A stretch of DNA of 34,787 nt. It comes from a bacterium (GTDB lineage Bacteria > Oederibacteriota > PGYV01). The stretch is taken from the NCBI GenBank assembly GCA_029565735.1, contig JAKQNO010000125.1, positions 1 through 34,787 of the forward strand, read 5' to 3'. Shown here piece after piece: positions 29,031 through 34,787 of the stretch (position 1 is the first letter of the stretch; the number at the start of each line of letters is the position of its first letter). The position numbers and the translations under genes are program-made. The notes under the pieces are model-generated. The model was given only the letters and a program-made list of their open reading frames with translations. It ran no database searches and had not been told where the DNA came from.

Positions 29031-30032
29031 ATGAAAAAAATTCTATGTTTAATTTTATTACTTATATTTCTGCTGTCAGCAGGCTGTTCCAAAAAGGATT
29101 CATTTGAAAATGACTTAAACGCGCTGCTGCCGCCTGAAAATGCCGAAGATTTTGACCTTACCATGACGCTTCTTGAAATATCCCGCCTTTTTGACCCGTC
29201 AGCCGATCCTGCCCTTATGAATAATGAATTGCAGCAGATGGCCGACAGGATTAAAACCGATTTAGGCGACGAAGCAAACGATGAAAGAATTGTTGAAATC
29301 TTTAACAAACACATCTTTGAAGACGAATCTTTCAAATACAATAAAAGTGTTATTGACTCAAAGGACAATAATAAACCGCTTTCTCCGCAGGAATGGCTTG
29401 ATATACGCCTTATGCATAAAGTTATTTCCAGAAGGGACGGAGTTTGTTCGGAACTGTCCTATATTACCCTTATGCTTGGCGAAAAAACCGGGCTTCCTAT
29501 CTGCATAATAGGCGTGCCCGGCCACGCTTACGCAAGGTACCAGCCCGCGGGCAAAAGCCCGATTAACATAGAAGCCACAAGCAGCGGAAACGAATACTAT
29601 GATTACGAAGATAAATACAACCCTGTCTGCCGCGGCGAATCCGAATATTACGGAAAATGCATGAGTGACAGGGAAGCGGTGGGATTCTATCTTGGAATTT
29701 TAGGCGGGGTATTCCGCAGTATGAAGGATTATAAAAAATCAGACCCGTTATTTAAAAAAGCACTGGAGCTGTGCCCCAAAAATCCCGGTTTTTACTGGGA
29801 TAACGCGGAAATGCACTGGCGCGTGGAAGACTTTGAAGGAGCCATTGTTCTTATGGAAAAAGCGCTGGAAATTGACCCTGAAAGCTCCGAGCTAAACGCA
29901 TGCACCGGATGGCTTTATAAGAGCATAAAACGGAATTTTAAAGCCGAACAATACTTTGAAAAAGCGCTGCGCCTTGACCCAAATTCCCGCTTTTCCGCGG
30001 ACAACCTTGAAGAATTAAAGAAAACAAAATAA
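29031..30032 (+). CDS. Lipoprotein with SirB1/transglutaminase-like domain and TPR repeats
   Basis: The 333-residue product is a lipoprotein: signal peptide with lipobox LSAGC (Cys19). Residues about 30-215 match the transglutaminase-like superfamily branch found in SirB1 proteins (Transglut_core2). RRDGVCSELSYITLMLGEKT holds the conserved Cys139 and is followed by IIGVPGHAYARY with the conserved His. Residues about 225-330 are TPR repeats (KKSDPLFKKALELCPKNPGF, AIVLMEKALEIDPESSELN, AEQYFEKALRLDPNSRFS). Known relatives are poorly characterised; an enzymatic role is possible because Cys and His are kept. The start is 3 bases after the SpoIID stop. The last gene in the window has the same two-domain plan without a signal peptide. 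Confidence 0.82.
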   Translation: MKKILCLILLLIFLLSAGCSKKDSFENDLNALLPPENAEDFDLTMTLLEISRLFDPSADPALMNNELQQMADRIKTDLGDEANDERIVEIFNKHIFEDESFKYNKSVIDSKDNNKPLSPQEWLDIRLMHKVISRRDGVCSELSYITLMLGEKTGLPICIIGVPGHAYARYQPAGKSPINIEATSSGNEYYDYEDKYNPVCRGESEYYGKCMSDREAVGFYLGILGGVFRSMKDYKKSDPLFKKALELCPKNPGFYWDNAEMHWRVEDFEGAIVLMEKALEIDPESSELNACTGWLYKSIKRNFKAEQYFEKALRLDPNSRFSADNLEELKKTK

Positions 30033-30055: not shown

Positions 30056-30084
30056 TTGCCATTACGCCTTTTATCTGCTATATT
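30056..30084 (+). promoter_or_regulatory. Promoter for the candidate small RNA / bipA leader
   Basis: TTGCCA (30056-30061), 17 bases, TATATT (30079-30084). Transcription should start near 30091, ahead of the structured RNA. It lies just after the stop of the transglutaminase-like gene. Confidence 0.6.
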
Positions 30085-30091
30085 TAGTTTG

Positions 30092-30255
30092 TAAGATGAG
30101 GTAGAGGTAGAAGTGGAAGAGAACCGGAAACAGAAAGTGCAGCAGAAACCGCTTTAGCAAAGAAATTGCTTTGGCAGCAGAAGTTGCATTAAGAAACAGG
30201 TTCTGTTCAGCTTTTACCCGGGCTCGATAAAAGCAGGAGCCCGGGGTTTTTTTTT
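30092..30255 (+). ncRNA. Candidate structured small RNA (rod-shaped, ~165 nt), family unknown
   Basis: No ORF fits here, but the sequence folds strongly. A 20-base closing stem (30106-30125 with 30199-30218) pairs at 18 positions, two of them G-U. Then come a purine-rich bubble (30126-30135 and 30191-30198), an 8-bp stem (30136-30143 with 30183-30190), an internal loop of seven bases on each side, and a terminal stem AGCAA...TTGCT with loop AGAAA. A promoter precedes it and a textbook terminator follows. Promoter-rod-terminator with a central bubble recalls 6S RNA, but the bubble is small and I cannot confirm the family. It may instead be a leader element controlling bipA downstream. Confidence 0.55.
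30217..30255 (+). terminator. Intrinsic terminator 1 upstream of bipA
   Basis: CCCGGGCTC (30217-30225) pairs with GAGCCCGGG (30237-30245) as a 9-bp GC-rich stem, followed by a run of nine T. It ends the candidate small RNA; its first two bases can alternatively pair in the RNA's closing stem. Confidence 0.9.
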
Positions 30256-30278: not shown

Positions 30279-30309
30279 AGAGACGCGGTATCACGGCGTC
30301 TCTATTTTT
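30279..30309 (+). terminator. Intrinsic terminator-like hairpin 2 in the bipA leader
   Basis: AGAGACGC (30279-30286) pairs perfectly with GCGTCTCT (30296-30303) and is followed by ATTTTTT. It lies 39 bases before the bipA ATG with no convincing promoter in between. The same 8-base stem recurs in the terminator after bipA. Confidence 0.65.
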
Positions 30310-30348
30310 TATATATGGACCATTCTAAAATGGCAGGAAGGTTATCAG

Positions 30349-32169
30349 ATGAACAGGATTAAGAATATTGCAATTATCGCCCATGTTGACCACGGCAAAA
30401 CCACCCTTGTTGACTGCATCTTAAAGCAGGCGGGCGTTTTTAAAGCGCACCAGAAAGTTGAAGAACGCGTAATGGACAGCAATGACCTTGAACGCGAAAG
30501 GGGCATAACCATATTTTCAAAAAACGCCGCTTTTAATTACCGCGGATATAAAGTCAATATAGTTGACACACCCGGCCACGCCGATTTTGGAAGCGAAGTC
30601 CAGCGCATACTGTCAATGGTTGATTCCGTGCTTCTTCTGGTTGACGCGTTTGAAGGCACAATGCCGCAGACAAAATACGTGCTGAAAAAATCCCTTGAAC
30701 TTGGGCTTATGCCCATTGTTGTCATAAACAAAATAGACCGCGTGAACGCTGACCCTGACGAAGTATTAAATCAGGTTTTTGACCTTTTTGTGGAATTAAA
30801 CGCAGCTGACCACCAGCTTGATTTTCCGGTAATTTACGCTTCCGGAAGGGACGGGTACGCAAAGCTTCACCTTAAGGATGAATCAAAGGACATGACTCCG
30901 CTTCTGGATATGATAATTGACCACGTTGCAAACACATCCGGAGACAGGACAAAACCTTTTCAGTTTCTTACATCCGCCATCAGCTATGACAATTATATAG
31001 GAAAAATAGGTACCGGAAAAATACACAACGGTTCTGTCCGCACGGGCGACAGTGTGACTTTGATAAAAAGAGACGGGCCTCCTGAAAATTACAGAATCAC
31101 AAAAATTCTCACTTATGAAGGCATTAACAGGGTTGAACTTAAGGAAGCCTTTGCCGGAGATATAGTATCGCTGGCCGGCATGGACACAATAGACGTGGGA
31201 GAAACAGTAACCGACCCCGAACACCCGGAAGACCTTCCCGCAATTGATATAGACAAACCCACGGTGGCCATGACATTTATGGTAAATAATTCGCCTTTTG
31301 CGGGGCGCGAAGGCAAGTTTGTAACTTCAAGAAATATCTGGGACAGGCTTATGAAAGAGCTTCAGACAAACGTGGGAATAGTTGTTGAACCCACCGACGC
31401 CCCGGATTCTTTTATCGTAAAAGGCAGGGGCGAGCTTCAGCTTTCAATACTTATAGAAAACATGCGCCGCGAAGGGTTTGAACTGCAGGTTTCCAAACCT
31501 CAGGTAATTTTCCGCGAAATTGACGGAGAAAAATGCGAACCTATCGAACACGCCATAATTGACGTGGACGCCGCTTTTGTGGGCGTTGTAATGGAAAAAC
31601 TTGGCGTAAGAAAAGGGGAGCTGATAAACATGGTTCCCGGCAAGGACGGATATACGCGCCTTGAATTCCACGTGCCCACAAGGGGGCTTCTGGGCTTTAG
31701 AAATGAATTTATGACAGAGACCCGCGGCACAGGCATACTTAACCACAGTTTTCACGAATACGGCCCCTATAAAGGCGATGTACCCACAAGAAATAAAGGC
31801 GTGCTTATAGTGCTGGAAGACGGCGTATCTGTGGCTTACGCGCTTGACAAGCTTAAAGACAGAGGCGCTTTCTTTATCTCGCCGGTAACCGAAGTATACG
31901 CCGGAATGATAGCAGGCGAAAATTCGCGCGAAAGCGATATGATTATTAACGTCTGCAAGGGAAAGAAGCTGACCAATATGCGCGCTTCGGGCACGGATGA
32001 CGCCATTAACCTGGAACCGCCGCGCAAATTCAGCCTGGAACAGGCAATGGAATATATCGCAGATGACGAACTGCTTGAAATCACCCCCATTAACATAAGG
32101 ATGAGGAAAAAAATCCTTGACCCGACAAAAAGAAAAAGGACAGAAATCGCCCTGGCTAACGAGGATTAA
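30349..32169 (+). CDS. typA: Translational GTPase BipA/TypA
   Basis: The 606-residue protein is of normal family length. BipA is a ribosome-associated GTPase involved in 50S assembly and growth under cold or other stress. G motifs are clear: AHVDHGKTTLVD (G1), RERGITI (G2), VDTPGHADFG (G3), NKIDR (G4). Domain II, the EF-G-like domain III (FVTSRNIWDRLMKELQTNVG, GRGELQLSILIENMRREGFE) and the BipA-specific C-terminus (FRNEFMTETRGTGILNHSFH, ENSRESDMIINVCKGKKLTN, EYIADDELLEITPINIRMRK) are all present. ATG 30349 is chosen because AGGAAGG lies 7 bases upstream and MNRIKNIAIIAHVDHG is the usual family start; a longer in-frame start at 30265 lies inside the leader hairpins. Expression may depend on read-through of the two upstream hairpins. 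Confidence 0.97.
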   Translation: MNRIKNIAIIAHVDHGKTTLVDCILKQAGVFKAHQKVEERVMDSNDLERERGITIFSKNAAFNYRGYKVNIVDTPGHADFGSEVQRILSMVDSVLLLVDAFEGTMPQTKYVLKKSLELGLMPIVVINKIDRVNADPDEVLNQVFDLFVELNAADHQLDFPVIYASGRDGYAKLHLKDESKDMTPLLDMIIDHVANTSGDRTKPFQFLTSAISYDNYIGKIGTGKIHNGSVRTGDSVTLIKRDGPPENYRITKILTYEGINRVELKEAFAGDIVSLAGMDTIDVGETVTDPEHPEDLPAIDIDKPTVAMTFMVNNSPFAGREGKFVTSRNIWDRLMKELQTNVGIVVEPTDAPDSFIVKGRGELQLSILIENMRREGFELQVSKPQVIFREIDGEKCEPIEHAIIDVDAAFVGVVMEKLGVRKGELINMVPGKDGYTRLEFHVPTRGLLGFRNEFMTETRGTGILNHSFHEYGPYKGDVPTRNKGVLIVLEDGVSVAYALDKLKDRGAFFISPVTEVYAGMIAGENSRESDMIINVCKGKKLTNMRASGTDDAINLEPPRKFSLEQAMEYIADDELLEITPINIRMRKKILDPTKRKRTEIALANED

Positions 32170-32751: not shown

Positions 32752-34787
32752 ATGAAACTATCAGATGACTTCCTGAAGCGTTTTCAGTCTGTTTTTCCGC
32801 CCGATAAACACTCTTTTGAATTTGAAAATTCTATTTTTGGTTTGTCTTCGCTTATTGACCGTGAAAGTAGCGAAGAAGAAGCCCGCGCCGCGCTGCGCGC
32901 AATGTCCGGGGAAATCCGTAAAAAAATATCCGGCGACCCTGCACCCAGAGAAAAAATTAATCTTTTTAATTCGGTTTTTTTTGGCGAATGGGGATTTACA
33001 TGCGATTCGCAGGCAGACAGCTTTTTTGCGGGTAAAATAAAAAAAGAAAACTTTAACAATTCTCACGAACTCTTTGAATATCTTTCAATTCCGCGCGTAA
33101 CAAAAAATAAAACCGGTATTTCCTGTACTATAGGGCTGATATATCTTATGCTTGCCGAATCGCTTTATATTCCCGTTTATGGCGTGGTCTCTACAGTGCA
33201 TTTTATTCTTCGCTACGATGACGGCGATACGAAGTTTGATATCAACATTATGGATAAAGGCGCGCTTCGCGAATCGCCAAAGGCGGTCAGGGACGAAATA
33301 ATTTACGGCAAAACCCTTGAACATTACCACAGCGCGGGAATTTATCTTACCAAAATCGCCAAGCTGCTTGAATCTGAAAACCTTCATAATGAAGCGGCCC
33401 CGCTTTTAAAAAGAGCGGTTGAAATAAATCCCGACTTCGCGGAAACGCATTACATAACAGGGCATTCGGCCTATATGCAGAATAATCCGGCTTTGGCGGA
33501 AGAAAAATTCAAAAAAGCAGTGGACTTAAACCCCGTATATGCCGAAGCATATTTCTCTCTTGGCGTGGTTTGTTATAAAACCGGCAAAAAGGACGAAGCC
33601 ATAGCCTGGTTTAAAAAAGCCACCGGTATACGCCCTGACTTCGCGGAGGCCCATTACATTATGGGGATGATACACGCTTCCGAAAAAAGGATAGAAGAGG
33701 CAAAAGAACACTTTGCCGAAACACTTGAACTTAATCCGGAACATACAGACGCTTTCTATAAACTGGGACTTTTGTATTACGCGGAAAGAGATATGGCGAG
33801 GGCAGAGGCGGCTTTTACCAAAATCACGCAGATAAATCCGGCTTACGCGCCCGCTTGGCTTAACCTTGGGCTGATTTACGAAGGCAGAAAGCAGCATAGC
33901 GACGCGGAAAAATTCCTGCAAAAAGCCGTGGAACTTTCCCCGGAAAACCACACATACAAGTTTTACCTTGGCAGCCTTTATTACTCTGCCGGAAATTATG
34001 GCGCAGCCGCGGAATATTTTTCAAAAGCGGCGGAATCAAAAGAACTGCACGAAAAAATCCACTTTAAGTTTGGCGCATCCCTTTATTATTCCGGAAATGA
34101 AAAAGCCGCCGAAGAAGAACTTAAAAACTGCCTGCACCATTCACCGCCTGACATAAATGCCTTGTTTTTACTGGCGGAAATTGCCGAAAGAACAAACAGG
34201 GATAAAGAAGCGGAAAAATACATTGAAATGATTTTAAAAACCGAACCGGAAAATATAGCGGCTTTATATAAAGCGGCAATGATACATTATAAAAAAGGCA
34301 AAAAAGATGATGCCGAAAAGAAACTTATCGCACTTATGGAAAAAGACCCGTCAAACCATAACGCCCTGCAGCTTTTAGGGGATATACACGCCGAAAAAAA
34401 CAACTTTGAAAAAGCTTCTGAATATTACACTTTGGGGCTGAATTCATCCCCGGAATGCAGTGAATGCCGTTATGGGCTTGCGCTTTGCTGTAAAAACCTG
34501 AAAAAAGAAAACGATGCCATAATTCATCTTGAAGCAATTACAAAAAATAACCCCGGATACAAAGACACGGCAATGCAGTTAAGCGCGCTTTACGCTCAGA
34601 CGGGAAGAAAAGAGGAAAGCGAGAACATATTAAAGACAGCAATAAACTCTTCCGGCGGCGGGGCTGATATTCATTATAAAATGGGCGTCATTCATATGGA
34701 AAAAAATGAAACCGATAACGCTGAAAAAGAATTTCAAAAAGCCCTTAATCTGGATTCAAAACACGCCCTAAGCCATATCTGCCTTGC
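32752..34787 (+). CDS. SirB1/transglutaminase-like protein with long TPR array, 3' end beyond window
   Basis: The reading frame is open from ATG 32752 to the window end (678 codons). Residues about 1-200 resemble the transglutaminase-like domain of SirB1 proteins: KTGISCTIGLIYLMLAESLY with Cys125, then GVVSTVHFILRY with a His, the same order as in the protein at 29031. From about residue 205 the rest is at least thirteen TPR units of about 34 residues (for example AAPLLKRAVEINPDFAETHY, AEEKFKKAVDLNPVYAEAYF, AEKFLQKAVELSPENHTYKF). No signal peptide is seen, so it is probably cytoplasmic and a scaffold or peptidase-like protein of unknown target. The RBS is weak; coupling to the preceding mini-ORF is possible. 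Confidence 0.75.
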   Translation, partial: MKLSDDFLKRFQSVFPPDKHSFEFENSIFGLSSLIDRESSEEEARAALRAMSGEIRKKISGDPAPREKINLFNSVFFGEWGFTCDSQADSFFAGKIKKENFNNSHELFEYLSIPRVTKNKTGISCTIGLIYLMLAESLYIPVYGVVSTVHFILRYDDGDTKFDINIMDKGALRESPKAVRDEIIYGKTLEHYHSAGIYLTKIAKLLESENLHNEAAPLLKRAVEINPDFAETHYITGHSAYMQNNPALAEEKFKKAVDLNPVYAEAYFSLGVVCYKTGKKDEAIAWFKKATGIRPDFAEAHYIMGMIHASEKRIEEAKEHFAETLELNPEHTDAFYKLGLLYYAERDMARAEAAFTKITQINPAYAPAWLNLGLIYEGRKQHSDAEKFLQKAVELSPENHTYKFYLGSLYYSAGNYGAAAEYFSKAAESKELHEKIHFKFGASLYYSGNEKAAEEELKNCLHHSPPDINALFLLAEIAERTNRDKEAEKYIEMILKTEPENIAALYKAAMIHYKKGKKDDAEKKLIALMEKDPSNHNALQLLGDIHAEKNNFEKASEYYTLGLNSSPECSECRYGLALCCKNLKKENDAIIHLEAITKNNPGYKDTAMQLSALYAQTGRKEESENILKTAINSSGGGADIHYKMGVIHMEKNETDNAEKEFQKALNLDSKHALSHICL

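Follow-up and report, generated by a model that had tools for sequence, protein, structure and literature searches.

The window analyzed here, a 34,787-nt stretch of DNA, corresponds to contig 41 in a draft genome of 2.47 Mb. It carries a bipA/typA gene whose product belongs to a widespread family of ribosome-associated GTPases with links to growth in the cold and to ribosome assembly. The gap between this gene and the transglutaminase-like gene upstream of it had been described in an initial annotation as containing a rod-shaped RNA with its own promoter and terminator. All of the parts that were claimed are indeed present in the sequence, and the features of this region are as follows.

30056–30084, + strand: sigma-70-type promoter TTGCCA-N17-TATATT with an extended -10 (TG) (TGCTATATT), made up of TTGCCA (30056–30061), a spacer of 17 nt and TATATT (30079–30084); the best promoter in 8 of 8 loci of the order is TTG-N17-TATATT
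30091–30255, + strand: predicted leader or small RNA, conserved in 7 genomes, with its 3' end within the U-tract
30106–30125, + strand: 5' strand of the closing helix, GGUAGAAGUGGAAGAGAACC, in which GGUAGAAGU is invariant in 7/7 sequences
30136–30190, + strand: inner rod, an 8-bp helix (30136–30143/30183–30190) plus a capped hairpin (30151–30175)
30199–30218, + strand: 3' strand of the closing helix, GGUUCUGUUCAGCUUUUACC, in which GCUUUUACC is invariant and the last CC is common to the terminator
30217–30255, + strand: intrinsic terminator CCCGGGCUC/GAGCCCGGG (-20.9 kcal/mol), a 9-bp stem (30217–30225/30237–30245) followed by U9 (30247–30255); sequence kept in 7/7 and partly in G003, a genome of the same order
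30280–30310, + strand: second terminator-like hairpin, GAGACGC...GCGUCUC followed by UAUUUUUU, kept in the genus
30335–30341: Shine-Dalgarno (SD) sequence of bipA, AGGAAGG
30349–32169, + strand: bipA/typA GTPase (domains GTP_EFTU, EFG_C and BipA_C), the presumed target

The 5' end of the RNA at 30091 was placed about 7 nt past the -10 box. The closing helix has exactly 18 of its 20 positions paired, and it, the 8-bp stem, the capped hairpin and the strong terminator directly behind the rod were all located as described. The hairpin at 30280–30310, between the RNA and bipA, had been missed; it is conserved at two further loci (L003 and L004), and another locus (L012) has a hairpin at a similar place. 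The assertion that such nested pairing is unlikely to arise by chance is borne out by comparison with shuffled sequences. The minimum free energy of the whole RNA is -55.9, while shuffled versions average -37.7 (z = -4.75), and the rod without its terminator reaches -37.1 against -23.1 (z = -4.82), with none of 200 shuffles as good in either case. No ORF of 30 aa lies within the RNA, and a protein-coding or leader peptide function was rejected, the short GTG frames of the homologues differing in length and encoding unrelated peptides.

DNA and covariance-model searches covering 45 genomes of the phylum located the element, always as a single copy, in 7 of them. Three of these carriers belong to the window's genus (family f1) and four to family f6, two families of a single order; conservation in relatives, the absence of which, together with that of covariation, had been named in advance as grounds for dismissing the RNA, was found. 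All 7 homologues are predicted to form a rod that shares this closing helix, and GGUAGAAGU and GCUUUUACCCGGG are invariant in them, wobble pairs included, meaning that the primary sequence itself is under selection. Aligned with its counterparts in the genus, the RNA of the window is identical at 142/156 and 140/154 positions (~91%), compared with 0.55–0.58 identity at fourfold sites of bipA in the same comparison. Within the genus the inner rod is nearly invariant, bubbles included. In f6 its place is taken by a different hairpin, mostly more fully paired, and the inner rods of the two families could not be reliably aligned. In the covariation analysis suggested earlier, 97.7% of cells are paired, but no pair is changed on both sides. 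This lack of demonstrable covariation stems from the near-invariance of the helices, that is, from lack of divergence, and no contrary changes were seen. Overall, we regard it as almost certain that the element is real and under selection.

Outside f1 and f6, matches were weak (E 0.1–1 at L073, L014, L015 and L145–L147), and no convincing match to the RNA was found at the bipA loci searched in other phyla. Apparent extra copies on contig C44 of the window's genome proved to be short purine-rich repeats rather than copies; those at G000:C44:37202-37276 (L009/L010) resemble the 5' strand of the rod (GAAACAGAAAGTGCA...) and are apparently low-complexity sequence.

The RNA had been proposed to be a divergent 6S RNA, a new small RNA or a sensor domain for bipA. 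A second, divergent 6S RNA is suggested by the paired ends and rod shape that it has in common with 6S RNA (RF00013) and, in this genus, by an internal purine bubble. That bubble, described earlier as central, is present in the window's genus but is not maintained in family f6, in which most rods are almost fully paired; a large central bubble is a trait of 6S RNA that is not conserved here. Moreover, the window has no Rfam match at the gathering threshold (best E 0.31), and 6S is absent among the matches up to E = 10. A canonical 6S RNA is encoded elsewhere in the window's genome (contig C120, 90 bits) and is present in all 7 carrier genomes, and the bipA RNA differs from 6S also in its linkage to one gene. 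We therefore set the 6S assignment aside as highly improbable. SRP RNA was likewise rejected, the genome having its own copy on contig C79. The element is a conserved, undescribed, lineage-restricted structured RNA and is not 6S.

Among the three proposals a leader or sensor of bipA is the best supported, by linkage to bipA only, by the absence of a detectable promoter downstream of the RNA and by the CC that helix and terminator have in common. The terminator ends 61–93 nt before the bipA ATG in 7/7 carriers, and the genes upstream vary: transglutaminase/TPR in f1; PilZ, LiaF-like and one unassigned gene in f6; and ComM/YifB in G003 (locus L014). In the other members of the order no bipA match was found at E <= 1e-40, and no convincing RNA either. 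The site upstream of the RNA is the best promoter at 8/8 bipA loci of the order, scoring 9.8–13.3 (p <= 0.035 against shuffles). In the interval from terminator to ATG of these 8 loci, the best score is 2.1–8.0 (p 0.15–0.99), none above shuffles. The scan used an E. coli-type matrix, and several control bipA loci also have no good site, so a promoter of bipA could have been missed. In other families of the phylum, used as controls, a promoter with a short leader lies near the bipA ATG in many cases, not all, and its absence here is for this reason suggestive rather than proof.

The main rival to a leader function is a stand-alone sRNA that acts in trans, on mRNAs or on a protein such as RNA polymerase or an RNA chaperone, with bipA transcribed either from a promoter of its own that escaped recognition or through readthrough at a constant low level. 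The RNA forms a compact, self-contained unit with its own promoter and a strong terminator, and the second hairpin would insulate bipA from it. Within the genus its unpaired bubbles hardly vary, suggesting that it has a partner with sequence specificity. Against this, the RNA always lies beside bipA even though the upstream gene changes, it is missing where bipA is missing, and the scan found no promoter for bipA. In addition, the bipA leader of G003 (L014, 2837–2901) has kept this promoter and a terminator related to the one here but has lost the rod. While the RNA is indeed new, being conserved and outside every Rfam family, an independent role in trans is not indicated, and we consider a stand-alone sRNA possible but clearly the less probable reading.

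On balance, we think it somewhat more probable than not, judging from sequence and predicted folds, that the RNA is a 5' leader of bipA that acts by premature termination. Transcription would start from the promoter at 30056–30084 and produce a rod closed by GGUAGAAGU.../...GCUUUUACC. The default product would be an RNA of ~165 nt ended at the intrinsic terminator, which in this genus is followed by the second hairpin, and bipA would be made by readthrough only. Readthrough might be set by competition between the closing helix of the rod and the terminator for the CC at 30217–30218. If the rod were held closed by a protein, a ligand, the state of ribosome assembly or low temperature, the base of the terminator would lie 2–5 nt off the U-tract and polymerase could read into bipA. 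Actual termination, the control of readthrough and the direction of the switch are the steps that we infer.

The bases at issue are the CC at 30217–30218, which is needed both by the closing helix (pairing with GG 30106–30107) and by the base of the terminator. The closing stem and the terminator, reported together earlier, are both present, but they cannot be complete together because the outer GG:CC uses the same CC. Enforcing the closing-helix pairing costs 0–1.8 kcal/mol, and at 37 C the closing pairs have an occupancy of 0.46–0.53 in 6/7 sequences, the two states being about equal. Both helix and terminator need this CC, at about equal energy, so readthrough could depend on which of them holds it. 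When the 3' arm of the terminator is absent, the rod pairs with 2–5 nt of the terminator's 5' arm. The overlap of helix and terminator is likewise 2–5 nt, only 2 nt in two genomes, which is too small to prove a switch. Two nucleotides of overlap would be little for a classical antiterminator, and exchanging GG/CC pairs is inherently near-isoenergetic. The complementary GCUUUUA/UAAAAGC in the terminator loop was also considered as an antiterminator and rejected, as it occurs in the window only and the loop is not conserved in the homologues.

At 5 C the occupancy of the closing pairs is 0.52–0.76 in 6/7 sequences, with no consistent rise in the seventh, a slight shift that the energy models are too imprecise to be relied on for. 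A modeled shift towards the rod on cooling would fit a gene linked to the cold. A more specific version of the leader reading, in which a 2–5 nt exchange between rod and terminator would set the level of BipA in a bipA-specific manner, promoted by cooling or by some factor related to the ribosome, appears unlikely. It would entail an attenuator that pulls the base of the terminator off its U-tract without forming a full antiterminator hairpin.

The arrangement of promoter, structured leader, terminator, short SD spacer and single gene follows the same order as in known attenuation leaders (ribosomal-protein leaders, riboswitches and T-boxes), in which an upstream helix also has bases in common with the terminator. 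The bipA RNA differs from these in having no known aptamer or Rfam match, in an overlap of only 2–5 nt and in an inner domain that is not conserved between families. That the inner rod changes so quickly speaks against a conserved pocket for a small molecule. Two other observations weigh against a leader function. Readthrough would have to pass a very strong terminator and, in the genus, a second one behind it, and the linkage to bipA, seen in only two related families, could in part reflect inheritance.

The passage of tandem terminators is where a processive antitermination element of the put, EAR or LoaP type comes into consideration, the rod in that case modifying polymerase so that it passes both. 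In put, EAR and LoaP RNAs an element near the promoter is followed by terminators, with no recognisable second promoter. Here, too, a conserved rod comes right after the promoter and is followed by one or two strong terminators with no recognisable second promoter, and such an element would account for the tandem terminators of the genus. The likeness is one of layout only. Known elements of these types serve long operons or phage units, whereas in the window a single gene, bipA, follows, with 580 nt between it and the start of the next, and no known element was matched in Rfam. We thus judge processive antitermination to be very unlikely.

For the preferred reading, a leader that terminates ahead of bipA, the wider distribution of terminators is also informative. 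In every carrier examined, a stem and U-tract precede bipA, with a predicted stem energy between about -18 and -22 kcal/mol, and few bipA genes of other phyla have a terminator in this position. In four genomes of another family of the phylum, f12 (L106, L107, L108 and L111), an unrelated GC-rich terminator-like hairpin, GAAGCCGG...CCGGCTTC TTATTTTT, lies 30–33 nt before bipA, behind a TATACT -10 box situated ~73 nt before the bipA ATG. The putative terminator leader of f1 and f6, taken together with the unrelated hairpin of f12, suggests that bipA may repeatedly have been placed under attenuation within the candidate phylum Goldiibacteriota/FCPU426. In the part of the literature that was covered, no description of RNA regulation of bipA/typA or of a leader RNA for it was found, and control of this gene by RNA is apparently undescribed so far. 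The element provides a defined sequence with which such control can be tested, and represents a so far unlisted RNA family from a phylum without cultured members.

As for the gene itself, the bipA of the window is closest to that of MAGs of candidate division FCPU426/Ca. Goldiibacteriota. The best bipA match, L011 (JAJFUW010000064.1), is titled Spirochaetia and is probably mislabelled; its RNA matches that of genome G012, which belongs to the same order. Within the first 198 aa, bipA of the order matches Delongbacteria MAGs at ~76%, compared with up to 69% for the other families of its own phylum, and the gene possibly originated by transfer. Downstream of bipA, the gene at 32752–34787 also appears to encode a long TPR protein, the start of which resembles the transglutaminase/TPR gene at 29031–30032.
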